A program made the translations under genes and the position numbers. Below the pieces are notes generated by a model. The model worked only from the letters and a program-made list of their open reading frames with translations, had not been told where the DNA came from and ran no database searches. Below are positions 13,366 through 33,974 of a stretch of DNA of 64,000 nucleotides, piece by piece (position 1 is the stretch's first letter; every line of letters starts with the position of its first letter). This stretch comes from Fistulifera solaris (lineage: Eukaryota; Bacillariophyta; Bacillariophyceae; Naviculales; Stauroneidaceae), in NCBI GenBank assembly GCA_030295235.1, contig AP026125.1, forward strand, positions 1,364,001-1,428,000. Reading direction: 5' to 3'.

Positions 13366-14866
13366 TCAATATTCAATGCCAGCTTCCTTTAGTTTCTCTT
13401 CCAAATACTGAATTCGTTCATTTGCTTCGGCCAAACTCTTTTGAGTCTTATCCAGATCTTCCTGAGCTGTCTCCAGACTCTTGGTCTTTTCATCCAAATC
13501 TTTTTGTGCCCCTTCCAATTCTTTCTGTACGGCCGCCGCCGGTTTGAATGTTTTGGTGGGCTTGGAGACGGCGGCCGCGGTCTTGCCTCCATCCTTGGGG
13601 TCCAGCGACATTTTGACCGGCTCCTTGGACGATCCCTCCAGCCACTCCGCGAATGAATGTGATGGCACCGCGGCGGCCGTATCGGGGAAGATATCGTCTT
13701 GGAAGGCGTCCGACTTGCGCGGGACGGTGAAGCTGAGCGGATGCACACCGGTGCTATTCGTTACCTTCAAAATACGCGTTGTTTCACAGTTCATGATTTT
13801 CAATCCACGTTTCGGCACCATGCAATATCCCTTACCCGGAATGTTGGAGCGGAATCCATCGTTTAGCTTGAAAATGAAAGGACTCTTGTCTTCGTATTCA
13901 TACAGACGAACGATACCATCTCCCTTACCGCAAAGGTACAGAACGTTGGTGTCTCCGTCCCAGAGAGGAATCATGGCACCCGCGGCCGTGTCCACAGGTT
14001 CCGTGTGAATCGGCTTGTCAAAGTTTCGGATATCAAAGACTTTGATCTCTCGTGTAGATTGTTTCGACGCACCAAACGAGAAAAGTTTTCCCGAGTCGTT
14101 CGCATACACCACTTTGACACTTTTCGCTCCGTCATGCCCCAACGTCTCGGCGGCCGTTTCCGCCGATCGTGGATCGACGAGTCGAATTTGCTTGTCTTTG
14201 CACGTGACCGCAAACATGTCACCCGTGTAATCCCACACAATGTCGTGAATGATATTGTCACACCCGGAATACTTGCGTGCTTCCGCGCCGGTCTCAACGT
14301 CCCAAATGCGGACCGTGTAGTCGCCACTGCTGCTCATGAGTGAGTTGGCCGCCGTGGGATGGAATCGCAGCAACGTGACCTTTTTTCGGTGGCCGACAAG
14401 ATCGACGACGCTTTCACTGAGTCCTTGTCCGGCTTTCTGTACACCATTCTCGTCGGTGGGTTCCCAAGTCTCCGGAATTTGCCAAATTTTAATTTTGGTG
14501 TCTTCACTGCCGGTGGCCATCATGCTGTCATCAAAGGGATTCCAATCAAAGTCATTGACCGCACCTTCGTGTCCGTGAACATAGGGACCATCGGCGACAT
14601 CGAAACGACCGGGACGGTCGAGTCGATTGACGTAGACAGGGCCACCTCCGCCGGCCATGCCGACGGCAAAGTATTTGGCGGACGCCTTGATATACTGTTG
14701 ATCACCCGTGACGGTCGAGAGACGGAACTCTGTGAATGTTTCCTATAAAGAGTGTGTCAGCGATCGTTCGATAACAAGAAAAAGCTCCATTTCCAGGTGT
14801 ACTCACTTCTACTTTCGGCTGATCGCAGAAAACATGACGATATTTGGACGTGCGGATTTTAAACAT
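13366..14866 (-). CDS. Coronin, actin-binding WD40 protein
   Basis: The true first exon is 14866-14807 (20 codons). A 64-nt intron (GTGAGT...TTATAG) joins it to 14742-13366, giving 478 residues. The short exon supplies RTSKYRHVF, the conserved basic N-terminal signature of coronins. WD40 repeats form the propeller (GHEGAVNDFDWNPFDDSMMA, GHRKKVTLLRFHP, YTVRIWDVE), followed by the coronin C-terminal extension (DGIVRLYEYED, GFRSNIPGKGYCMVPKRGL). A linker and a terminal coiled coil of about 60 residues (KELEGAQKDLDEKTKSLETA) serve for oligomerisation. Coronins bind F-actin and Arp2/3 and act in actin turnover and vesicle traffic. Length and domain order are normal. Confidence 0.95.
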
Positions 14867-19397: not shown

Positions 19398-22300
19398 ATG
19401 ACATCCATCCAAAGCCAGTTCGCGGCGCAGTTGGCGGACTTTTGGAAAGATGACTTTGCTCCCCTGGAAGCGGCCGGCAAAGCCGTTTTGAATTGTCTTC
19501 GTGAAGACGAAGCTGCTCCGGATGCCGATTTGTATCGTCGTATCTCCAACTCTTCTACCGGCGCTCATGCGTACTTTGACGACGATTCTTCGAAAATTGC
19601 GCTGCAGTGGAAACACGTGCAATCCGATCCGCTGCCCGCATTGCTGTCGCAGCAACTGTCGACGGTACAAAGTCACTCGTTGATGGGATTGTTGGCTCCG
19701 GCATCACTGGCGTGGATGAGTGTTGATCACAAACTGTATTTGTGGTCGTTTCAGAGAAATTTGCAAAACGAGTCGTTGCTGTGCTTTGAAATCCCGAGTC
19801 AACAGTGTGTGGTTAGTGTCGGTTTGGTGAAACCCAAAAAAGGTGCGTACGCGAAATCGAATGAATCATTGAAATCTATCGAAGCGATTAGGCGCTCATG
19901 TTCTATTTGCAACCAAAGGTGTCTTTAAGGATGATGTGAAATGGGGAGTCGTAGTCACAACACCCGAAGAGATTTTCTTTTGTGCATTAGTTCAGTGTGA
20001 CGCATCGAACCCCGACGGCGTGGCGTGGCGATTGGTCCCCACCAGCTTTACTTTGCCGACGGATGGAGTGCGCATCTTATCCATTGCGGGTACAGCGTCG
20101 GGTCGCATCTTTTTGGGGGGAGATGATGGGTGTGTGTACGAAATGTCCTATGAAGGGCGGATTCCCGACAAAAACCAATCCAGTGCTCGTGATCTCGAAA
20201 TTTATCTAAATCAGTTTTATGAAAATGGCGAGAAATTACCCAATGTAATTATTACAGACGCGGACGACAGGGTGATTCAAGAGAATGAGGCGAAGCCGCT
20301 CGCTTTTGGGAAACGCGCTTGGAGTGCGATATCCGGTGAAGATGAAGCTTATGAGGAGCAACCACGAAAGGTCCGAAAACTCAATCGCACGTCCGATTCC
20401 TTTCTGCGAGCTATACTTCCTGATTTTATCAGTAATCAAGCGGCGGCTTTGTTCGGCGGGAAGAATGCTACGGGTGGTGGAGGCATTGTGCAGATTGCGG
20501 TGGATGAGGAGCGACAAACGCTCTACACTTTGGGGGTCAAGGGATGGATTTGTGCTTTTGATCTACGATCTCAGTCTTCCAGTGGCGACATTCGGTTGGC
20601 TTCGGTAATGGACACCGTAAAAACGTCTCGATTATATTTGGAAGCGGTGTCACGGGGGCAAGTCGTCCCACCGAATACGTTACATTCTTCTGTGCTGGGG
20701 GCGTTGGTTTTCCCCGGGGGTAGCCAAGCAGCACAAAGCGGTGTAGGAGGTATGGACGGAGCGCGCAATATTTTGAAAATCGCTAATTCTCCAGTGGATA
20801 GGTCCAGTGCAAGTTCATTTGTTGGTGAGAATGTTTTGAAGCCTGTATCCATACAAGTGGTTGCACCATCCGAAAGCTGTCGTGTTACTCTTGTCGCTAT
20901 CACACAAGGGGGCTTGCGACTCTACATATCTTCGTTAGCCCCCAGTGTGTTTAATCACGGAACTGCGTCTGCTTTACAAAGTAATGGAACTGGCAGGACT
21001 ATGTCGAACATACTAGCGCCTCACAGCCGGTTGACTGTTTGCCACATGCGGGCACCGCCTTTGAAAAGCTCCGAAAAAGGAGTTTTGGATACATCTAGTC
21101 CAGTAGAAGGAGCTATTCTGCCACGTTATTCATCGCCTCTCAAAATCAACGCTGCTTGGTATGAAAAGGGAAACTTTGTCGCTGCTGTGGAAGAAAACTA
21201 CTCGGCTTTGAACGGCCAAACGGACCAAAACCCATCGAACAAGCCACAAAGAGGCGACATTATTGTTGCGACTTCTCCTGATGCTTCACGCCATCTCGCT
21301 GCGTCGTCCCGTTTATCCGGTGAGAATGGCACCAAGGAGAATATCGACGATAAAGAGCGTTTTTTAGGCGTCGGCGGAATTAGCGAGGCTGTTTCGTTTC
21401 CGATGTCCATGGCTTTCGGAATTCGAGATAGGGATTCAGTGACACCCGGGGGAGCAATATGGCAAATTGCTTCACTACACGAAGGGCGCTCACCATTATT
21501 CGACTTGCTGCTTCATTCCATGACACCCTCCGAATCGGAGCTTGGTGTAGGACCGCCCCCGCTTTCTATCCGTCTGCAAGGACGGGCAAAACAGGGAACG
21601 ACCCAAATCAGTCTAGTCAGAACTCTTCGACTGATCTTATTGATTCAAAACTTTCGACAACAGCCCTTTCTGTTGTTGGTAGCGTTCTGGCTAAGCTACT
21701 ACTTGCGAGGCCAATTTCGATGAACGGCATGCCAGCCCAAATTGCGTCTACTTCGACCGGCGAAAATGGCATCTCACGAAGAAAACAAAAATGCTATAGA
21801 ATCTCCTCGCATGATGCTTCTAATGGCTTCAGTTCAACTGCAGAAGAAAAATCTGGTGCTGTGAGCAACATTGCAAAGACTGCAGGTAGCCAGTCTCCTC
21901 TTAAATCAGCTAGGTTGCGACCGGGTTTACTTAAACCTCCTCCAGCGGCCTTAAACTTATTCTCGACGCAACATCTGGATTATCGTCCAAGGGAAATTGT
22001 CGCTGTCAATGCTGGCGGACTGCATTACTTTCAATTAGAGGGACATCTACACCAACTTGCCAATGCTATTCTATCTGCTAGAGAGCGAGTGAGGGATGAT
22101 GCTACCGTTTCGAGATTCTTTTCAGGGTTTGGCTACAAGGAAGGTTGTGCCATGTGTATCACCTTGGCGATTGGATGTGTTGAAGTGAGTAATGCGGATT
22201 TAAGGCGTCTTGCGATGGATGCTGCTTTCGCAAGGGCGTTGGCGCCGAGACTCATTCCATCAGAGGAGTTCAATACAAGTAATGGTTCCAGCCGAAGTGT

Positions 22301-24965
22301 TGTTTCAACGGGAACATCCGATCCCATGGTTCCTAAAGGCTTCGAATTTAAACCATCTGCCCTTTGCGAGTCACTGTATTCAACGCTTTCCCGTCTTGTT
22401 CGTCCAGTTTGGAACAAGCCAGTCGTTGTAGTAACGGAGGGGCCTTTAATCAAACGTCAATGGTCGAAGGTGGCTTTGCAGGCTCCGGCTAAAGTCGAAA
22501 TACTGCTCAATGAAACAACACTTGACGAAATCAGTCGTCCTCTTCGAAATTTTCAGTCTGAAGTGCGATCCAGGCTGTCTCGGGCTGTGTCCTCTGTTCC
22601 TGGAAGCGCCCAGCCAAATTCAATGGAAATCGATGCGATGGACGGGTGGTCGGATGACAGCCAATTTTTAACAAGGGCATTACAATACCAGAACCAGTCC
22701 CGCACCATTCAAAATGGGACGGTAACGAACCTTTCTATCGAAGAAGCTGAGAGTATTGCACGGCTAATTGAAGAGAAGAATATCCATTCGTTGTACCGAT
22801 TACTTTCTCGCGTGGTTCAGTTATTAAATCTTCTCAATCTGCTTCGCCGTGCTCAGGTATCGGCTGAACTTCATGAAGTCGATTGGGGTATGCTGCATGG
22901 ATTGACTTTCTGGCAACTTGTTGGCACGTTGGAAGGCCAAGATCGTCTGGAATCTTTGCTCAATGCACTTGTAACTCACTCCGCAGCGGATGATTCAGGC
23001 ACGAAGAGCTTAACTGCTAAAGCTGATGATTTGGTTGATAAGCTAGGATATCAATGCTATCTTTTCTTTTCACCTGGATCGCGATTTGCATACTCTGGGC
23101 TCAGAAAGGCAGCTCAAGCTCTCAACTGCCACCCCGAGTCCGCACTTCGTCGCGAGCTCAAGCAAGCTGCAAAACTCAAATTAAAGCAGGCTGCTCAACA
23201 TTGGCGAAGTGCAACCCTCGTCACAGGTCACGCAATTCATACGAAAGAGAAAGAGAGCTACAAAGAGATTGCCCAACGTGCTATACAGTACGGCAGTCCT
23301 CTTGCTATGGCCGTTGCCAAACTTATACAATTGGATGATGTCGACACAGCCGTCGATGTGTGTCTTAGTGTTGCTTCGAATTTTCGTAGAATGAGTGGAG
23401 GCAGAGATACGACTGGTTTTGAACTTCATTCACAAACGACTGATCAACTTGGTTGGGAACACAATCTTTACCATAAGCGACCTGATCAAGTCGAGAGCGG
23501 CGTGGGCCAAAGCACTAGCTTTAAAGGAGCTCGTCATACCGCTGCTTATGGAACAGATGTCAGCTCTGAAGATGTTGTGGCGACGTGCTATGCCTTAATT
23601 TTCTACCACCTATCATTTCTTTTGAAATCGCCGCAACAGCTGCTGTCTCGTTCAATGCTTGAGGTGTGCTCCTCGTCTACAGATAGCAATTTTTTGGAGG
23701 CTTTCTACTCATACATGTTGGAAAGTGGCAATGAAGATACTCTGCTAAGAATTATTAGCCCGCATCTGGAAGAGTGGCTTAGAAAGAAGGAGGATCAGGA
23801 TTTGCTCTGGCGCTACTTCAGTATCCAAGGGCGGCAACTTGAGGCAGGTCAAGAATTATTCTTAAGAGGATGCGCTAAAGACACGAAAATTCCCTTGAGC
23901 ACCAGGATCGAGTATCTATCAAAAGCCTTAAGTGCGTTACGCATAGCGATGAAGGACGCCCATGGAGTGGGCGAGATTGGTCACAAGGTAGATGAAGTCG
24001 ACGAATCTCTTCAAGTCGCACGCATTCAGAGTCAAATCTTACAGGCCATCGAGTCGAATACGAGTGATTGGCGTTCCGAGATATCAGAGGAGAAAATTGA
24101 CGCGCTAAAATTCAGCCTGGTAAATGTCTCAGATCTTTACAATGACTACGCGGTAGCGTTGGAGCTCTATGAAAGCTGTTTGCAGATCCGTCACATTTGC
24201 CGACACGATGACCCCGACGCTACTCGCTTTTTGTGGAAGCACATTATATGTAAAGAGTTTCTCCCGTGTGCCACGCGTAGTGACGACAACTGTCAATTCC
24301 TCAAGGGCTGGGTGGCGGAAATCGGGCGAGATGCTGAGGTTGTCCCTCTCTCAATTGTGAATAACGGCGGCGGGACCAGCTTTTGTGTATTTGAAAATGG
24401 TGATTGGATCAAGTCAGTCGAAGACAAAGTTGTTGCCTTAGGACAACAGCTATACGGAAAAGGAAGAGACTATGTCGCTCCGCCGAAATTACTCTTGTCG
24501 TACTTGGATGGTAGGTAATATTCATCTTCCTTCATATCGCTTTTCCAAACAACTGGCACTCACTTTCTCTCCGAAACAGAACTGTGCGGTGCGTTACCCG
24601 GTATTCTTCGTCCGGAATGGCCCCTAATTATTTTGGCTCGAATTGGAGTCCCTTATCTAAGTATCTTGGACACCTTCGAAACATTGAACCGTTATGAAAT
24701 TCACGGTTTTGTAAGGGAGCAGGATGACGAGAGATGGAAAAGAGAAATGCACGCTATCATCGAGCTTTTGCGACATTGGGTTGCTTCCGCGCGTTCATCA
24801 GCGAGAGACAGCAAAGCTTGGCAAGAACTTTCCCGTTCCGTGACCTCTGGGAAGCTCATGCCCAAAATTGACGACCTCCGGGTCCAACTTGAAACCCATT
24901 CCAACACAGCCGCTCTGCAAGAAAGTATCCGTGTTATTATGCACGAAATCCAAAGTATAGCGTAA
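19398..24965 (+). CDS. NUP155: Nucleoporin Nup155/Nup170 family, one frame break
   Basis: Three exons, 19398-19842, 19919-24510 and 24580-24965, with introns of 76 and 69 nt. One base is missing in the A4 run at 21588-21591. Adding it joins LQGRAK to TGNDPNQSSQ and all phases agree, giving about 1,807 residues, larger than the 1,391 of the human protein because of Ser/Gly-rich inserts. The N-terminal beta-propeller shows the family pattern (GVVVTTPEEIFFCALV, GRIFLGGDDGCVYEM, IVQIAVDEERQTLYTLGVKG, VTLVAITQGGLRLY). The C-terminal half is an alpha-solenoid with many paired helices. The protein is an inner-ring scaffold of the nuclear pore and anchors it to the membrane. The name rests on pattern recognition over the whole propeller. 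Confidence 0.9.
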
Positions 24966-25000: not shown

Positions 25001-25432
25001 TTAGTTTTGTGGATATTTGTCGAGTGCATCGAAGTTCCTTTGCTTCTTCCTCTTCGCACAACAAGAGGCACGCCTTACAACGAATAGTGTCTTGTCATGT
25101 AAGAAAAACCAAACACTTATACGAAGCTCTTATCTTTTCATTACCTGGTACATCATGTAGTTGCCGTGACTGCTGGATCGGTCGATGAGTTGATTGACTT
25201 CAATTGAAACTCGAGTAAACGCATGCGAAAACGTGGATGAAAAGGGCCTCAAGGTTTCGACTAGTCCGTCCTTGGGCCACAAAACGGGATGGAATGCAGC
25301 ATAGTCGTCGTAGGTTGGAAATGCAAGTAGTCTCGTAAAGTCGGGTTGAGGTCCGAGTTTAGGTGTGATGCTAGCTTGCGCTCGTGCGCCAAATGCGCTC
25401 TTAAGCAAGCAGCATCGGTAGCGCATCTCCAT
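25001..25432 (-). CDS. hypothetical small protein
   Basis: ATG at 25432 opens a 96-codon frame that reaches CAG|GTAATG at 25145/25144. A 54-nt intron ending CAAG at 25091 would join it to a 30-codon exon ending TAA at 25001 (125 residues). Without splicing it stops after MYQVMKR. The text SAFGARAQASITPKLGPQPD, then RLLAFPTYDDYAAFHPVLWP looks coding, but no family is recognised. The basic, Ala/Ser-containing start could be mitochondrial. It converges on Nup155 with 35 bp between ends. Confidence 0.35.
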
Positions 25433-25789
25433 TAGTCAGCCTCGTCGTGAACAATTCGTTTCAAATACCGGATTTCGCCAAGCGTCTGAATTTCACAATA
25501 GTGGGTGCCGCGGCACAATTGGAACAACTTCCCCCGTTTTGATACGTTCCGTGGCTCTCTGGGACCTCGTGGACGGAGTTAATGACGGATGGAAAAGATC
25601 GCATCATCGGCAGCAGTGCAAATCCATTTCAAGAATCGATGAACGACAATATCCAGAAATTCATTGAAATCTTATCACAATACTCAAATGGTAACTGTCG
25701 CTATTAGCATAGAACAGGCTTGTTATATTATAGCGGGAGAGAAAACACATCCCATGGTCAACGACGTTTGCTGTATTCTAAAACGACGA

Positions 25790-26370
25790 TCACAGAATTT
25801 CTGTATGATCTGGACCAAACGCACAGAATTTCGGTATGCGATTGCAAACACAAATGGTCCAGAATTTCTGGACCAAACACACAGCATTTCTGTATGATCG
25901 CAAACACGTCCAGAATTTATGGACCAAACACACAGAATTTCTGTATGATTGCGAACACCAATGGTCCAGAATTTCAGGACGAAACACACAGAATTTCGAT
26001 ATGACTGCAAACACCAATGGTCCAGAATTTCTGGAACAAACACACACGGAATTTCTGTATCTTCGCAAACACGAGTGGTCCAGAATTTCTGGAACAAACA
26101 CACCGAATTTCTGTATGACGGCAAGCACCAATGGTCCAAACACACAGAACTTCTGTATGATTGCAAACACCAATGGTCCTGAATTTCTGGACCAAACACA
26201 CCGAATTTCTGTATGATCGCAAACACCAATGGTCCAAGAATTTCTGGACCAAACACACGGAATTTCTGTACCAGTACCAGTTATGCTTGATCGCAAACAC
26301 CAGAAATTCTGGAACGACAACAACAGAATTTCTGTGTGATCGCAAACACCGATGACTTCCAGAAAATAAT
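25790..26370. repeat. degenerate tandem array of about 56 bp containing perfect palindromes
   Basis: About ten units, some shortened to about 50 bp, with the consensus CAGAATTTCTGTATGATCGC, AAACACCAATGGTCCAGAAT, TTCTGGACCAAACACA. Each full unit holds a 21-bp palindrome around one central base (TGGTCCAGAA-T-TTCTGGACCA) and a second of 11 bp (CAGAA-T-TTCTG). Several frames on both strands stay open through it, which explains apparent ORFs of 94-211 codons; these follow the repeat period and are not genes. The array ends about 150 bp before the start of the desulfurase-TtcA gene. Confidence 0.92.
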
Positions 26371-26521
26371 TTTTTGTTGGTGGGACGGAAAGACGAAGCC
26401 GAGAACCAAGAGCCAAGAGAACCAAGAAGAGGAAACGGAGTTTTCGTGACGACGATGATGAATAATAAGTAGTAGGTGTTCCTCATTCCTCACCCGATTG
26501 TGAATTACACAAATAAAGACA

Positions 26522-29500
26522 ATGAAGATTGAAGAAGACTGTGTTAATAATCAAAGCACAGAAACCGACAACCTCATTCTTGAATGCGGAACGAGTTTCG
26601 CGGAGCGCGAACACCGTGCGGAGAGCGAAAGTGGCAAAAACGACCGCAGTTCGTTCGAGTCGATTGAGGAACTCCGCGCTCATGTTGCAAATGATGTCGT
26701 AACTTCCCAACAGCGGTACACGACCTTTGCTTCTCCGTTTGAAGTGGTTCGGGATCCTGCAGCGCCGGAGAGCCGCAGATTCTTGGAAGTCCCTCTCGTG
26801 TACGCCGATCAGACCGCTTCCAATCGTCCTCTGCAAAGCATCGAGAATTACATCCAACAAACTTGCCTACCACTTTACGGAAACACACATACAAACACAA
26901 GCATCACTGGAAGTCAAAGTACTGCTTTTGTCGCAGAAGCTCGCCAAATTGTTGCCGAAGAAACGAACGCCAAGGTGACAGGAAAAGCGAGTCTCGATGT
27001 TGTTCTTTTCGCGTAAGTGCAGTCGGTTTTGTCTCGCCGTCCGTTCCGATCCGTGTATCTTATATTCAGTTGAATCTTATACAGAGGGAACGGAGCAACT
27101 GCAACCGTCGAATTATTAATTGACTGTTTGGGCCTTCGGCATGCTTGTCAGGAACAGTCCACGCGTCCTGTCGTTTTTATTGGCCCGTACGAGCATCATT
27201 CAAATCTTGTTCCGTGGCGTGAAACTGGATGCGAAATTGTCATGGTTCCGGAGTGCTCGGATGCTACTGATATCGACTTTGATGCTCTCGACCGTCTACT
27301 CGCTAGACCGGAATACAATGGACGCTTCAAAATGGGAACCTTTTCCGCGGCGTCGAACATAACCGGTAAGATCAGCGATGTTGACCGCATTGCCGCTACG
27401 CTTCACAAACACGGGGCATTGGCGTTCTTTGACTACGCCACGGGTGCTTCCTATATGAAGATGGACATGAATCCACCGCCATCGGAAAAATACCCACTAC
27501 CTGGCTCTACTGCCAAAGACGCGATTTTTATTAGTCCACACAAAATGATAGGAGGAATCGGTACTCCAGGTGTTTTGATCATTAAGAAGCACCTTGTCAA
27601 CCAAAGTAATGCACCGCATAGGTCAGGAGGTGGAACGGTTTTCTATGTCACTAGCGAGCATCACCGCTTCCTTGGCAACAGAATTGAGCGTTATGAAGGC
27701 GGTACTCCAAACGTATCTGGAATCATTCGGACAGGACTCACTTTTTGACGAAACGAAAGATTGAGAAGGAGTACGAACGTTTGGTTTCGCAAAATGTCAA
27801 TTTACCCCGTACAGTTGAAGACCTCGACTGTGCTGAATACGAACGCATTTCGACGTTTTTAGCCCAGAAGGCGCCGAATCTTGTGTTGTTGGGGAAAGGC
27901 ACCGGTTCGCGACATCTCCCTATCTTCTCGTTTCTTATTCGCTTCCAAGGTAGATTTCTGCACTTCAATTATGTCTGTGCGATATTGAATGACGTTTTTG
28001 GAATTCAGACCAGAGGTGGATGCATGTGTTCGGGACCTTTCGCACAAAGTTTGCTTGGTTTGACTTACAAGAATGCAGACGGAGTCGATTCTCCCAACGA
28101 ATTCAACAAAGAGATTGAAGATGCGTTGATCAAGCATAAAGAACGTGCCGAACTTCTTCGTCCCGGTTTCACTCGACTGAGCCTTCCATTCAAAGGACTC
28201 CTCGATTTTGAAGTTGAATACATCTTGCATGCTTTGGTTTGGGTGGCTAAACATGGTTGGGCGTTGATGTGCCAGTATCGGTGCAACCACCGCACAGGAG
28301 AGGTACGATTTACTCATCTTGACGTTCTGACTCCTCGTTTCTATTTACTCACAAACAAATGATGGTTTGTAGTGGCGTCACTCTAATCGTCAGGGGAAAC
28401 CACTTGGACGAGAAGAAAGAAAATGGTTGAGTCATTTCGACTTAAAAGGCGACAAAGAAGTTCGTTCGATTAAAGATAACACGGAAGAGTATACCACTTT
28501 GTTGAGATCTACGTTGGCAAATGCCAACACCTTGCTCGATGTTGCAATGACAGATCAGCGGAGCATATCGCAGGCATTGAAAATGATGGATTCCGAAATT
28601 ATGGGGAAGGACGATAACATGAAGCTAGAGAGTCTGCGATGGTACGCTTATCCTAAGGAATGCGCAATGCTTCTATCATCTCACAGATATGACGAAGCCG
28701 TCCAACTGGAAATGCCTTTGCTGGGTGCCATGAAGCCAAATTACATGAACAAACGGAGGCTGTCGGCAAAGCGAGATATTGAGGCTAGTTTTGATCCTGT
28801 GAGCGACTCTACCTCTGATCCTGATTTAAGCGCTAAGAAGCAAAAAGTAGTAAATATTCCAGATCCTTCTGCTACGGAAGTAAACAATGCGAAAGCCAAA
28901 GTGAAGAAAGCCCCGAGAGATTGTTCCACATGGGGCAAAGGAGAAGTGGTACCTGTCCTCGCAAACTCACAAGAACAGACATGTACTTCTACGTCTCTGT
29001 GTATTGGCAAAGAGTCATCCGTTGGGAACAAAAGTTTCAGCACATCAAACCTCCTGCCAAGATGATGCGGCTGATTAATCAAGCGATTGTTCAATGGGAC
29101 ATGATAAAAGAAGGAGACAAGCTTCTTCTCGGTTTATCGGGAGGAAAGGATTCGCTCAGTCTCTTACACGCATTACTTGAAGTCAGGAGAAAGCACCCGG
29201 TGAAGTTTGAACTTGAAGTTTGCACTATCGATCCAATGACTCCCTCTTTCGATCCATCGTCGCTCATTCCGTATGTTGAGTCCCTAGGGCTGAAGTACCA
29301 TTATATTCGCGACGACATCGTCTCCAGGGCTGGCTCGTCTGGAAAGGACGGCAAGATGGTATGTATTGCTTCATGCTGAATGCTTAACTCGTCTACAATT
29401 GCTTTGCTTATGTTCGTTATTTAGGTATCTTCGCTATGCGCATACTGTGCAAGGATGAAAAGGGGCAATCTCTACTCGTGTGCTCGAAAGAACAATTGCA

Positions 29501-30138
29501 ACAAGCTGGTTTTAGCCCAGCACCTCGATGATTGTGCTGAGTCATTTATGATGAGTGTAATGCACAATGGTTTTTTGAGAACAATGAAAGCAAATTACAA
29601 AATCAACTCTGGGGATCTTTCGGTTATACGTCCTATGGTCTACTGTCGTGAGAGTCTAATGACAGAATTTGCGAAATCCGTTAATCTCCCCGTCATCAAC
29701 GAGAATTGTCCAGCTTGCTTTGAAGAACCAAAAGAGCGGGCGCGCATTAAGAAGTTGCTGAGCCGAGAGGAAAATCTTTATCCTAATTTTTATGACAACA
29801 TACGGCGGTCCCTCCTTCCCTTGATGCATGATGACGCAACGTCTATACTGCGGTGTTATACTGATGAAGTTGTTTCGAAAAGTCGGAAGAATGCTAAGGT
29901 TTCTACCCGCGTTGTAGACAATGAAGATACAAAAATTTCAACTGACTCTTTAACGAAAATATCAGAAGACGAGCTCATCAAAGAGCTGGCAAGGAGGAAA
30001 GCTGATCGTTTCCGGCTTTCTGGTTCAATGAAACGAGCTGACGACAGCGACATGTCGGGAATTCCTGATCCAACTGGTCAGATGTGTTCTTTAAATGGAG
30101 GGAACGGCACCATTCCATGCACAGAGCTCATGGAGTAA
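26522..30138 (+). CDS. Fusion: NifS-like cysteine desulfurase + TtcA-like tRNA 2-thiocytidine synthetase, two frame breaks
   Basis: Four exons, 26522-27012, 27085-28302, 28373-29358 and 29425-30138; introns are 66-72 nt. One base is missing in the T5 run at 27742-27746 and one in the A4 run at 29030-29033. With both restored all phases agree and one protein of 1,136 residues results. Residues about 90-560 form a class V aminotransferase/NifS domain: PLP Lys in SPHKMIGG (about 317) and a catalytic-loop-like Cys pair in TRGGCMCSGPF (477, 479). After a charged linker of about 220 residues comes a TtcA domain: PP-loop LGLSGGKDS (about 823-831), CAYC (904, 907), QHLDDCAES and ENCPACFE (994, 997), the Fe-S-binding Cys pattern. 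NifS enzymes release sulfur from cysteine; TtcA thiolates cytidine 32 of tRNA in bacteria. No presequence is seen, so it is probably cytosolic. The linked function is inference. Confidence 0.85.
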
Positions 30139-30156
30139 CTCATGTAACGCGAATAT

Positions 30157-33100
30157 TTAGTCAAATCTATCCACTTCACCTCGTCTTGCAAGAGACTCCA
30201 CCTCTTCATCTAAATGTTCCGTTTCCCGAGCGGCTTCGAGTAGTTTTTGAGTCTGAGAGCGCGATTCCATCAGTTTTTCCCGCTGCCTTTGCGCCCATTC
30301 GTCGGCATCTCTACTCATTAACGCTATCCTTTCTTCGGGGAGTAGATCTTTCATATCCCGGCTTAGTTGAAGTAGCTTGTTTGTCATGTCTCCAAGGACG
30401 TTAGCCCCAGCAAAATTACCCCGTACGCTATCACCAAGAGATCCGACGATGTTGTCGACAACCTGTACGAACGGCCGAACGTCCAGTGAAGGCATCACAT
30501 CAATCAACTGCTTTAGAAGTAGTCTCCTCTCCACAGCGGTTTCCATCCGTAAAACATACCCTATGTGGTCAATGTACCTGTTTATACCTCGGGCCAATTC
30601 AGCATAAACACCTTGCTGCACAATTTTCAGCACAAACAACCACTGATTGTGCTCGGGATCATCGAGAAGTCCAGCGCGAGCAAGTTTTGCTTCCTCTTCG
30701 GCAACTGCGTATTTCAAATACGCGACAAACGAATCATCAAACAACGGTCTCATTTCTCTCACACCGTCAGTCAAAGCTTGTGCTGTCTCTTCTTCTGTGT
30801 CGTGTTTGGGGTCCATAGCTATCTTGCATATCGATCTAATGACTTCCAATTGTTGTGTCTCTAACTGCGCCCCAAGAGCCCGTGCTTCTTTTAGAAGAAG
30901 CTGAGCAGCAACAACTAATCCTCCAAGAAGCTGACGCTCTCGCGAACTAGTTTTTTCGGTGGCATCGTCGCCTCGGCGCATAGCTTCCAGGTCACGATCA
31001 GCCATCATGGTGAGTCTCTCTTTCACAAGTGTCACAAAATTGTCAGAGAGCAACAAATCTTTGTAGTTGGAAGTAATTTCAGTATGCCTCTCCTCCGGTT
31101 GATCCCATAGCTCATCTATAAGCATCTGTAGTTGCGAAGATTCTTTCATCTTTATCAAAGGATTGTCAATGAGTCCGATATCCACTGCTTCAACCATAAG
31201 CGTTCGCATATTTTGCACTTGCTTGTCAGTTAATTGCCGATTCCCAACAAAATAAGTCGTCACGCTGTTCCCGTCAAGCGATTCCTCTTTGACTTCTTTC
31301 ATTTTCTGGAGTACTTCCGATGCGAATTGCGCTTGTCTCAAAGCTTCGTCTAATTCCTTTGGCAGCCTTATCGTGCCTGTTCCTGGTGAGGCCCCAGGCC
31401 AGTTCACTGCGGTCTCGGGATCCACATTCGGATTGTAGACTTCTGGGCCGGAGAAAATGTCAAAGAGCGGTGCCTTCGCAGGGCCATCCAATTCTTCATC
31501 GGGAGACTTGTTGATGCGAACCTCAAGTTCCGCTAACTCGTCATCTAATATACGGGCATGACTTGATATCGAGTTTTCTAGTGCAATGAGATTATCCACC
31601 TCGTTCTTATTTTCCATCATCTCTTCCTCGCTATAAGCCCCGGACGTTTCAATTTTACTAAGACGACCGTCTGCAATGTTTTCTCCAGCCTCAAACATGC
31701 GCCGAAGCTCTTCTTCAATTGTCATTGTCTTAATATTTATTGTTTCAGCAGTTCTCGTCCTCACCTCTGCGGCAGCTTTATCGGCCACATCGTACATGAG
31801 ACGATCTTCGCGCCTCTGGCGTTGTTCCCGAAGTAGATCTTTTGCCTTCTCGAAAGCCCCACTAACAAATCCAGCGCCTACTGTACTTTCATTGTCCTGC
31901 ACCTCGCCAAATTTCATCACCTGATTTAACAATTCCTCTGGTGTGAGTTCTTCGCCTTGTTCTGACATCTCCAACAACGCGTCCTGAGCTGCTTTGATCA
32001 TTTCCCTTTGCTTCGGATCGGTAATATCACTTGGGTCATTTACCAGGTCCCGATCGGAAAGAACAGCATCACCGCCCGCATCCTGGCGAATATTCAGATT
32101 GATGTTTCGTGCTATCGGTGGATTGGGTATTACTGACGACGTTGCCTGATCCTTTAAATAGTCGGCCGGCCTTGAAATCGTTTGCATGAATGCTCGCGGC
32201 TTTCCAGTTGCAGAGCGATCTAAACTTGCAGGTCTACAAGACAACATATCCATCCTTATTGGCGAAGCCTTGTCGCCGTCAAGTCTTTCTGATTGGTTGT
32301 CCTCCTCCTCCGGAATTCGAGTGACTTTTGTATTCCCGGGTAAGCTCGTACTTCTGACGTTCTTTTTCCGCATTTTCTCAGCAGCTCTTTTGGCTGCATC
32401 CACTGCGAAATTCCCACTAGTAGTTCGTTTGGCATTACGCTCAGCGGCCAACTTGGCTTGCTGTACAGCGAAATCGAGTCCAGGCGGATTCGCTCGATTG
32501 TTTGTGGATGACGAAGACGACGCCGTACTTTTCTTCACTTCAAAAGTCCGTTGAGCGTTAGCTTCTTCTCGTGACAATTCAGAAGTAGATTGCCGTTTCG
32601 AAACAATTTCAGCGTCTGTAAAGCCTGGTTTGGGAGTCGACTCTTGTTGTAATTGGTCATCATCATTGCCCAGTATTTCCGCTAGAATCGATTCCCGACC
32701 TTCCAAGTACGAGTTCGACTTTGTTGCTCCAAATGATATCTTTCCCGACATGTATTTTTCTAACCCACGATCCAGAGCTTTCAAAATCTGTTTCTCCGAG
32801 TCTTCAAAGAGGTTCCGTAAGAACGGAGGTAACGACTTTCCCGTTTGTGGTCGCTTCCCGACAACGACCATGGCCAAGTTGGTAGTCGTTGATTGATCTT
32901 CCGGAAAGACAGCGACTACTTGAACTTCCAAACACGTCTGATCCGATGACGGCGAAAGGGACGAGTCCCACTGAACAACACTTTTTGAGTCTTTAATCGT
33001 CTTCGCCTCGTATACCATGGGAAGCCGAGGAGGAAGTTGAAAATGATCTTGTAGGTATTCGACCAGCGTACTCAGAAAAAGATGCGAACTGATGTTTGAA

Positions 33101-33315
33101 GGTGCTCTGACAATCTTCTGATACATCACAGACAAGTCTTCCGTTCTGTACGTTCCATCCGAGGCTTGGTATTGGAGGGCGATTGATCTATCAGAATGAA
33201 ACGAAGGAAGAGTCACAGAACGCAACACTACGCTTCTCCCCGTTGACGACGGAACAAAGCCACAGCTCCGAGTTATAAACAGAAGTGTAGTAAATATGAA
33301 TTTAGATGACATCAT
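30157..33315 (-). CDS. Large plastid-targeted protein of unknown function
   Basis: A single exon encodes about 1,052 residues from the ATG at 33315 (a second ATG follows at 33312). The start is a signal peptide ending in a plastid motif (MMSSKFIFTTLLFITRSCGF, then VPSSTG). The rest is soluble. Residues about 40-250 may be a folded domain (YQKIVRAPSNISSHLFLSTL, EVQVVAVFPEDQST). The middle is rich in Ser, Lys and Glu with likely coiled coils. The last 350 residues are mostly helical (LLGGLVVAAQLLLKEARALG, VYAELARGINRYIDHIGYVL). I do not recognise a family. It ends 18 bp from the end of the convergent desulfurase-TtcA gene. The long uninterrupted frame with a presequence makes it a real gene. 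Confidence 0.8.
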   Translation of the reverse strand: MMSSKFIFTTLLFITRSCGFVPSSTGRSVVLRSVTLPSFHSDRSIALQYQASDGTYRTEDLSVMYQKIVRAPSNISSHLFLSTLVEYLQDHFQLPPRLPMVYEAKTIKDSKSVVQWDSSLSPSSDQTCLEVQVVAVFPEDQSTTTNLAMVVVGKRPQTGKSLPPFLRNLFEDSEKQILKALDRGLEKYMSGKISFGATKSNSYLEGRESILAEILGNDDDQLQQESTPKPGFTDAEIVSKRQSTSELSREEANAQRTFEVKKSTASSSSSTNNRANPPGLDFAVQQAKLAAERNAKRTTSGNFAVDAAKRAAEKMRKKNVRSTSLPGNTKVTRIPEEEDNQSERLDGDKASPIRMDMLSCRPASLDRSATGKPRAFMQTISRPADYLKDQATSSVIPNPPIARNINLNIRQDAGGDAVLSDRDLVNDPSDITDPKQREMIKAAQDALLEMSEQGEELTPEELLNQVMKFGEVQDNESTVGAGFVSGAFEKAKDLLREQRQRREDRLMYDVADKAAAEVRTRTAETINIKTMTIEEELRRMFEAGENIADGRLSKIETSGAYSEEEMMENKNEVDNLIALENSISSHARILDDELAELEVRINKSPDEELDGPAKAPLFDIFSGPEVYNPNVDPETAVNWPGASPGTGTIRLPKELDEALRQAQFASEVLQKMKEVKEESLDGNSVTTYFVGNRQLTDKQVQNMRTLMVEAVDIGLIDNPLIKMKESSQLQMLIDELWDQPEERHTEITSNYKDLLLSDNFVTLVKERLTMMADRDLEAMRRGDDATEKTSSRERQLLGGLVVAAQLLLKEARALGAQLETQQLEVIRSICKIAMDPKHDTEEETAQALTDGVREMRPLFDDSFVAYLKYAVAEEEAKLARAGLLDDPEHNQWLFVLKIVQQGVYAELARGINRYIDHIGYVLRMETAVERRLLLKQLIDVMPSLDVRPFVQVVDNIVGSLGDSVRGNFAGANVLGDMTNKLLQLSRDMKDLLPEERIALMSRDADEWAQRQREKLMESRSQTQKLLEAARETEHLDEEVESLARRGEVDRFD

Positions 33316-33974
33316 GAAAATTTGTTGAAAGGTATGGAGTGGTTTTGACAATGATGTTTTTGAGTTTCGACGAAGAATAAGAACGAAAACAAAAATGCGA
33401 CCTTAGTCGCAAGCGAAGGTTCGATGGTGTAGGTTATGACGACGGTTGATGACAAGACGGATAGTCCTAACCTTACGACATCCTGTTCATAATCCATCAT
33501 TTTCGCCTCTCTAGTTTGCTATAACAAATAATTAATGCCTTCAATAGCAATGATAAAAGAATTGCGAAGTGTTTTGTCTGTTTCAGCGTGCAATGTTTAC
33601 AACACAGGCGGAAGTTGGCGAGCATCGACGACTCCTCAAACGGCTTAAGAAATGAATTCATGACTGAAATGCAGTCGTGGCTAAGTTGAAAAACAATTTA
33701 GGCTGTAGTGGTAGGTCTTGTAGAACCGTTCCGCTTTGAGGATGTTTTGTGAATAGAAACGGGGGGAGCTTTGTTTTTCTCGTTGTTTTGTGCGTGTTCG
33801 GTAACGGCTGATGGCAAAGATGCCTTCCAACATACCACCACAAGAGAGAACAAAGGGAGAACACCAATTATTTTCTCACAATGAGAAGTATTGCAGAGGA
33901 TAAAAGGGATCTTAGGCGGCTTGCTGAAGAGCGGAAAAATCCCCCCTGTACGATTAGTAACATCGTCTGGTTCC
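33316..33974. other. divergent intergenic region
   Basis: This region lies between the unknown plastid protein and the SulP gene. It contains the hairpin motif copy 3 and an ATG at 33881 that opens a 39-codon frame (MRSIAEDKRDLRRLAEERKN) out of phase with the SulP frame. No other structure is seen. Confidence 0.4.
33659..33680. repeat. short hairpin motif, copy 3
   Basis: CATGACTGAAATGCAGTCGT continues GGCTAAGTT. The arms GACTG/CAGTC are perfect and extend with one wobble. The flanks ATTCATG and GTGGCTAA match copy 2 at 11.9 kb. Confidence 0.4.

Follow-up and report, generated by a model that had tools for sequence, protein, structure and literature searches.

A desulfurase-like/TtcA-like fusion gene in Fistulifera solaris as a candidate thiolase of cytosolic tRNAs

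In other eukaryotes, cysteine sulfur reaches cytosolic tRNA along a relay of proteins, Nfs1-Tum1-Uba4-Urm1-Ncs2/Ncs6. The abstract of one report (PMC11705076) calls thiolation of the wobble uridine (U34) through Uba4-Urm1-Ncs2/Ncs6 conserved from yeast to humans. Fusions of a sulfur-supplying part to a tRNA thiolase are also on record: according to excerpts of a second report (PMC10219651), a SufE-like domain precedes MnmA in apicomplexans, and MnmA and YrvO, engineered into one chain, are functional in the Plasmodium apicoplast. Here we describe a gene of the diatom Fistulifera solaris in which a cysteine-desulfurase-like half is followed by a TtcA-like PP-loop half. The gene lies at 26522-30138, + strand, of a 64,000-nucleotide stretch (the window; contig AP026125.1, positions 1,364,001 to 1,428,000), which is part of contig C5 of a genome assembly of 51.7 Mb and 61 contigs. 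An earlier note on this DNA had claimed a fusion of a class V aminotransferase and a PP-loop domain; the fusion is present, and the same layout occurs in a second genomic copy. We think it rather probable that this one nuclear gene specifies a two-module protein, a desulfurase plus a TtcA-like thiolase, that would act on cytosolic tRNAs in a genome where CTU1, CTU2 and URM1 were not detected.

The coding region opens at ATG 26522-26524 and closes with TAA 30136-30138; the predicted protein of about 1,105 residues consists of two modules. The fusion is real, with a frame less clean than first described. Its parts are as follows.

26522..27012, + strand: exon 1, N-terminus and first part of the class-V aminotransferase domain
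27085..28302, + strand: exon 2, remaining class-V aminotransferase domain with the motif of the lysine that binds pyridoxal phosphate (PLP) and the CxC loop
27533..27556, + strand: SPHKMIGG, PLP-binding lysine, residue 317
27742..27746, + strand: T5 run, where the reading frame shifts -1; probable homopolymer undercall
28015..28035, + strand: GGCMCSG, catalytic cysteine loop, CxC being residues 477 and 479
28373..28948, + strand: exon 3, extension at the C-terminal side of the aminotransferase module, with the motif ESLRWY, and the variable linker
28949..29040, + strand: probable fourth intron, 92 nucleotides, GTACCT..TTTCAG, frame-restoring, with GT and AG conserved in the second copy (contig C6)
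29041..29358, + strand: exon 4, first part of the PP-loop domain, with SGGKDS at 29137-29154
29425..30138, + strand: exon 5, remaining PP-loop domain, CAYC at 29437-29448, ENCPACFE at 29701-29724, and C-terminal tail

Exon 1 is taken from an open reading frame at 26504-27016 with its first ATG at 26522 and a donor, GTAAGT, at 27013; by eye, no organelle presequence was seen at its N-terminus. The introns start with GTAAGT, GTACGA, GTACCT and GTATGT, and there is an AG at every 3' end. In Pfam searches the first spliced half matched Aminotran_5 at E 8.9e-29, and the second matched ATP_bind_3, a PP-loop family, at E 7.7e-14. Single pieces matched as well: 27086-27745 of exon 2 alone gave Aminotran_5 at E 6.6e-23, and the TtcA model was matched by 29041-29379 (exon 4, E 1.2e-22) and by 29425..30138 (exon 5, E 3.1e-31). 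The five motifs named in the earlier note (SPHKMIGG, GGCMCSG, SGGKDS, CAYC and ENCPACFE) were all located. Its account of the gene thus stands for the fusion and the motifs and fails for the consistent splice phase across four exons, which overlooked the exon-2 frame break at T27742-27746 and the extra intron at 28949-29040. The gene model likely has five exons, not four.

The copy on contig C6 has the same domain order, the same exons and introns, and the same T5 run and frame change. The two copies are 92.6% identical in DNA across a 4,733-column match that includes the gene. The ratio of nonsynonymous to synonymous substitution rates (dN/dS) between C5 and C6 was 0.16 for exon 1, 0.08 and 0.06 for exon 2 before and after the break, 0.56 for exon 3 (linker), 0.04 for exon 4 and 0.07 for exon 5. 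Third codon positions held 28/46 of the differences in exon 1, 34/44 and 28/36 in the two parts of exon 2, 26/58 in exon 3 (linker), 14/15 in exon 4 and 29/40 in exon 5. The last 26 residues of the C-terminal tail, including two cysteines, are identical between the copies. Since the C6 copy keeps the order, the introns and the break, and the domain-exon differences are mainly at third positions, the layout is more than chance. Domain-exon dN/dS values of 0.04-0.16 on both sides of the break mean that both halves are under selection and that the gene is used. Domain order, conserved residues and purifying selection on both halves are all seen in two genomic copies.

The best solved relatives of the first half are cysteine desulfurases. 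Its relatives came from genome contigs (the best 80 of at least 581), plasmids (6 of 212 matching records) and viral contigs (1); among the matches listed, it is 36-42% identical to stand-alone bacterial class-V proteins. The PLP lysine and a cysteine in the conserved loop, the marks of a class-V SufS-like desulfurase, are both present: the lysine and both cysteines of the RGGCxC loop are invariant in 86/86 bacterial proteins (80 genome and 6 plasmid), and the second cysteine of the CxC loop is presumably, by motif, the SufS catalytic cysteine. The ESLRWY motif in exon 3 is also shared, with L, R and W common to 81, 79 and 81 of the 86 bacterial proteins. In 7 of the 80 bacterial genome loci the stop-to-stop open reading frame exceeds 700 residues, the extra length lying before the aminotransferase domain, with 163-203 residues past the CxC loop. 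The first half belongs to a bacterial SufS-like class-V subfamily having a CxC loop and a C-terminal extension, and desulfurase activity is predicted for it.

The bacterial relatives were also searched for a neighbouring PP-loop gene. Flanks of up to 6 kb (8 kb for the viral locus), many of them shorter where contigs end, were compared by tblastn with the PP-loop half and with the genome's own TtcA. The 87 loci (80 from genome contigs, 6 from plasmids and 1 viral) yielded none: nothing matched at E 1e-3, and the best E was 0.96 at a limit of 10. A bacterial operon or a bacterial origin of the fusion is therefore unsupported, given no PP-loop match in these loci. Other neighbours were seen. In 2/6 plasmid loci (L020 and L021) an Lrp/AsnC regulator adjoins the stand-alone relative, which could point to regulation by cysteine, and an MBL-fold (metallo-beta-lactamase) hydrolase is near the relative in 2/6 plasmid loci. 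One distant relative of the aminotransferase half (28%, L102) comes from a contig of 306 kb that is classed as viral.

The second half matched the TtcA model best and the TilS, TtuA and NcsA models weakly. Against the NCBI TtcA model NF007972 it scored 193.2 bits (E 6e-57), under the cut-off of 272; a Clostridioides difficile protein recorded as TtcA is also under this cut-off, at 220.8 bits. Against the NcsA model NF047749 it scored 35.9 bits, with a cut-off of 500 bits. Its identity is 30-34% to TtcA proteins versus 21-22% to two NcsA/TtuA-type fragments, and its best solved relatives are the [4Fe-4S] U34 tRNA thiolase 6scy and TtuA PH0300. CTU1 carries zinc-finger pairs; by eye, none were seen in the second half. 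SGGKDS and three cysteines, a CxxC plus a later one, align with the cluster cysteines of TtcA and of TtuA/6scy; in TtcA, Cys122, 125 and 222 hold a [4Fe-4S] cluster, as stated in a passage of PMC5372745. The motif at the third cysteine is ENCPACFEE, not TtcA's PCNLCGSQ, a TtcA-defining criterion that was read from the present alignment, and the Firmicutes TtcA-like rows likewise do without PCNLCGSQ.

In a tree of 12 PP-loop sequences, of little weight given its small sampling and two fragmentary rows, the second half has a long branch, which falls between TtcA and a cluster containing TtuA/6scy and relatives from Firmicutes and Fusobacteria. PP-loop relatives were found in 12 phage records and 49 plasmid records (25.9-35.7% identity among the 40 matches listed), where they are annotated as TtcA, as C32 thiolase, as ATP-binding protein, or not at all. 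Two scans of viral contigs yielded none. By these comparisons the second half is a divergent relative of TtcA and a putative [4Fe-4S] PP-loop ATPase.

The thiolation genes of the genome were inventoried in one assembly, searched exon by exon. A PF01171 search gave nine matches, some as exon pieces, which make up two TilS pairs, one TtcA pair and the fusion pair; TilS identity was verified in one member of each pair. The canonical TtcA is on C3/C4, its C3 copy scoring 317.1 bits, above the cut-off, and its N-terminus is signal-like by eye. MnmA is represented by two pairs and one weak, stop-ridden match. Of the three MnmA N-termini read by eye, those on C28 and C29 look plastid-directed and that on C16 looks mitochondrial. 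The plastid-type MnmA on C28 (L120 886-2676) bears a SufE domain at its N-terminus (PF02657 of Pfam, E 1.9e-13, above cut-off); its partner on C29 is L121 823-2676, and the SufE scan covered the C28 copy only. With the SufE-MnmA gene on C28, the genome holds a second natural case of a sulfur-relay component joined to a tRNA thiolase.

The search for CTU1 gave no candidate. The NcsA model matched the TtcA pair only, under its cut-off, and TIGR00269, which we take to be the C-terminal part of CTU1/NcsA/TtuA-type proteins, had no match in the genome (its positive control matched 7/14). Yeast Ncs6 as query found the TtcA pair at 28-29% identity and, at a best E of 0.004, gave a weak match to the fusion pair; one further place matched at chance level. 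ThiI was also not found in the genome, with a profile whose positive control matched 11/14. ELP3 is present in both subgenomes. By N-termini read by eye, the fusion is the sole thiolase candidate without an organelle-like N-terminus. Genes for cytosolic U34 thiolation thus appear to be missing while ELP3 stays. The earlier note had set the gene against the CTU1/Urm1 path of the eukaryotic cytosol, a contrast that is turned round here, CTU1, CTU2 and URM1 not having been detected in the genome. Its further reading, a desulfurase-like/TtcA-like fusion, agrees with the purifying selection described above, apart from the missed break and intron and the loose label "TtcA-type": TtcA is the best profile, but the half falls short of the cut-off that the separate TtcA exceeds.

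In the reading we favour, the aminotransferase module, as its homology suggests, would take sulfur from L-cysteine to form a persulfide on the CxC loop. The PP-loop module, in the same chain or in a partner chain, would receive the persulfide and would adenylate and thiolate an anticodon-loop pyrimidine of cytosolic tRNAs. We infer both activities, the channelling of sulfur and the cytosolic location. As CTU1, CTU2 and URM1 were not detected, U34 is a serious target. These absences and the separate TtcA favour U34 of the Lys, Glu and Gln tRNAs, which we make our first choice, at a likelihood somewhat short of even; the profile scores favour C32, our second choice and a slightly less likely one. 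A bolder form of the U34 proposal, offered tentatively, is that URM1, CTU1 and CTU2 have been lost and that a single chimera replaced the whole Nfs1-Tum1-Uba4-Urm1-Ctu1/Ctu2 relay, drawing sulfur from cytosolic cysteine and thiolating U34 itself, together with Elongator.

Several observations weigh against an enzyme of this kind and this target. As assembled, the frame is broken in exon 2. The first half scored 103 bits (E 1.6e-29) against the SufS model TIGR01979, whose cut-off is 475.1 bits, and because the subfamily scores so far under it, desulfurase activity is predicted here and is not a family assignment. Among the annotations and structures of the relatives, none was found to show that any member of the bacterial subfamily has been assayed or had its structure solved, no dedicated literature search having been made. 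The profile score of the second half is nearer TtcA than NcsA, favouring C32. CTU2 had no profile match, in a search where no positive control matched; the URM1 profile also had none, its control matching in Sulfolobus only and thus without a eukaryotic positive control; and a yeast Urm1 query, run without a control, gave no match. ATG8, a ubiquitin-like family of similar size, was detected by the method used for URM1.

It is possible, though we doubt it, that the same fused enzyme has C32 of cytosolic tRNAs as its target and forms 2-thiocytidine there, the reading of the earlier note. TtcA is the highest-scoring profile, and the identities of the PP-loop half to TtcA proteins exceed those to the NcsA/TtuA-type fragments. 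The half nonetheless misses the TtcA cut-off, a curated threshold that the separate canonical TtcA of this genome exceeds, so 2-thiocytidine 32 is not the obvious product. The ENCPACF motif also resembles PCNLCGSQ less than it does the CP motif present in the NcsA/TtuA fragments and in two Firmicutes relatives. If the target is C32, this would be, to our knowledge, the first cytosolic eukaryotic 2-thiocytidine enzyme. That the PP-loop half inserts sulfur into a substrate other than tRNA is improbable: PP-loop sulfur insertases acting on other substrates exist, LarE being one, but the families matched by the second half are all tRNA enzymes, as are the named solved relatives with E <0.001.

A slightly less probable alternative still is that two adjacent genes are present, the first ending at TGA 29063-29065 and the second starting at an overlapping ATG ATG, 29062-29067. 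The linker frame changes again between 28837 and 29065, and in both copies the stop of the unspliced frame (29063-29065) coincides exactly with the pair of Met codons in the PP-loop half. Just upstream of them, however, is the conserved, frame-restoring GT..AG intron, whose stretch evolves unlike the domain exons. Read as coding, 28949-29040 has 10 C5/C6 differences, at codon positions in numbers of 6, 2 and 2, and because this spread is unlike that of the domain exons, the fourth intron is favoured over the other way of restoring the frame, one base missing from the A-run near 29031. Two genes would also have no intergenic space between them, and HIKPPAK, which precedes the Met codons, aligns without gaps with the N-terminal part of TtcA proteins. 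Whether by an intron or by a lost base in the linker, the two halves join.

The break in exon 2 was considered separately. The open frame shifts -1 at T27742-27746, and when the two frames are joined, the alignment with bacterial homologues is gapless at the break, through GGTPNVSGIIRTGLTF/LTKRK. Most likely the break is a homopolymer undercall in the assembly. Other single-base gaps were found: ATG8 has four C on C2 (L144) versus five in the intact C1 copy (L143), the C6 copy of the window gene at 13369-14742 has three, two of them within T runs, and an Aminotran_5 gene is split on C26 and whole on C25. Since such gaps, several of them homopolymeric, disrupt genes whose partner copy is whole, findings in this assembly that rest on reading frames need care. 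An undercall shared by both copies of the fusion is plausible, as the surrounding sequence is nearly identical. An intron was also tried as the cause. Conserved GT..AG pairs that fit numbered 52, with donors at 27560-27747 and acceptors up to 27959; the intron was rejected, as each pair would remove 47-389 bases that are conserved in bacterial relatives and evolve like coding sequence.

A programmed -1 ribosomal frameshift at T27742-27746, with the full-length enzyme as a minority product, would explain why two copies that differ elsewhere share the T5 run and the frame change without any difference, and a one-base slip of the TTT codon before the TGA yields exactly the homologous protein. We consider it very unlikely, since the assembly has the further one-base gaps just listed and, by eye, no standard slippery heptamer was seen in frame. 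Least likely of all is a decaying pseudogene pair, for which the frame break in both copies would speak but which is contradicted by the low dN/dS of exon 2 on either side of that break.

Some features of the surroundings were recorded. Just upstream of the gene, at 25809-26270, sequence is repeated in tandem about every 56 bases, periods of 98 and 212 being alternative readings. When 25400-31500 was compared by blastn with the C6 copy, the match started at about 26473, with just one 33-base piece upstream, near 26378. On the - strand, at 30157-33402, a 1,081-residue open frame lies tail to tail with the gene and ends 18 bases beyond its stop; the C6 counterpart has 1,106 residues. The region 19873-24515 and its C6 counterpart contain long overlapping open reading frames in different frames, possibly from a shared frame change (an intron or an assembly error).

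Full-text literature, with most subscription journals outside the coverage, gave no description of this fusion or of its role. The earlier note's remark that it knew of no described enzyme of this type is in keeping with the full-text literature on tRNA thiolation and desulfurases, where none was found; the architecture may already be listed in protein databases that hold eukaryotic architectures. The main new point, which rests on absence in one assembly, is that cytosolic U34 thiolation genes appear to be missing where ELP3 is kept, with the fusion as the sole thiolase candidate whose N-terminus is not organelle-like. An ELP3-bearing genome without detected CTU1, CTU2 or URM1, but with desulfurase and thiolase in one chain, offers a test case for the replacement of a relay, and the fusion is equally a test case for persulfide channelling inside one protein. 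It may stand in for the entire usual cytosolic pathway of eukaryotes.

How the two modules compare with their closest families can be put briefly. With SufS/CsdA-type cysteine desulfurases the first half shares the class-V family, the PLP lysine, the EHHSN motif and a cysteine in the conserved loop; it differs in belonging to a distinct bacterial subfamily, with a CxC loop and a C-terminal extension, that scores far under the SufS cut-off. The second half resembles TtcA in the PP-loop SGGKDS, in the CxxC and third cysteine at cluster-ligand positions and in its degree of identity, but it is under the family cut-off, has no PCNLCGSQ and is fused to a desulfurase, canonical TtcA being a separate gene in this genome. 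With NcsA/CTU1 (Ncs6) it shares the PP-loop superfamily, the CxxC site and the CP motif at the third cysteine, and its best solved relative is the U34 thiolase 6scy. It is unlike them in its identity of only about 22% to the 6scy fragment and in a score far under the NcsA cut-off, and the eukaryotic enzyme has its sulfur from Urm1, not from a fused desulfurase.

As a fusion, the gene can be set beside SufE-MnmA, known from apicomplexan plastids and seen here on C28, which is likewise a natural joining of a sulfur-relay part to a tRNA thiolase. SufE-MnmA, however, carries the sulfur acceptor SufE and not a desulfurase, its thiolase is MnmA, and it belongs to the plastid, not the cytosol; the present gene goes beyond these precedents by including the desulfurase itself. 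MnmA-YrvO of Bacillus subtilis pairs a thiolase with a dedicated desulfurase and works when fused, but, by the same excerpts (PMC10219651), they were joined artificially, their genes in nature lying side by side with 31 bp between them, and the thiolase is of another family. The proposed enzyme would, like the Nfs1-Tum1-Uba4-Urm1-Ncs2/Ncs6 relay, deliver cysteine sulfur to cytosolic tRNA; what the relay does with many proteins in series would here be done by a single polypeptide.

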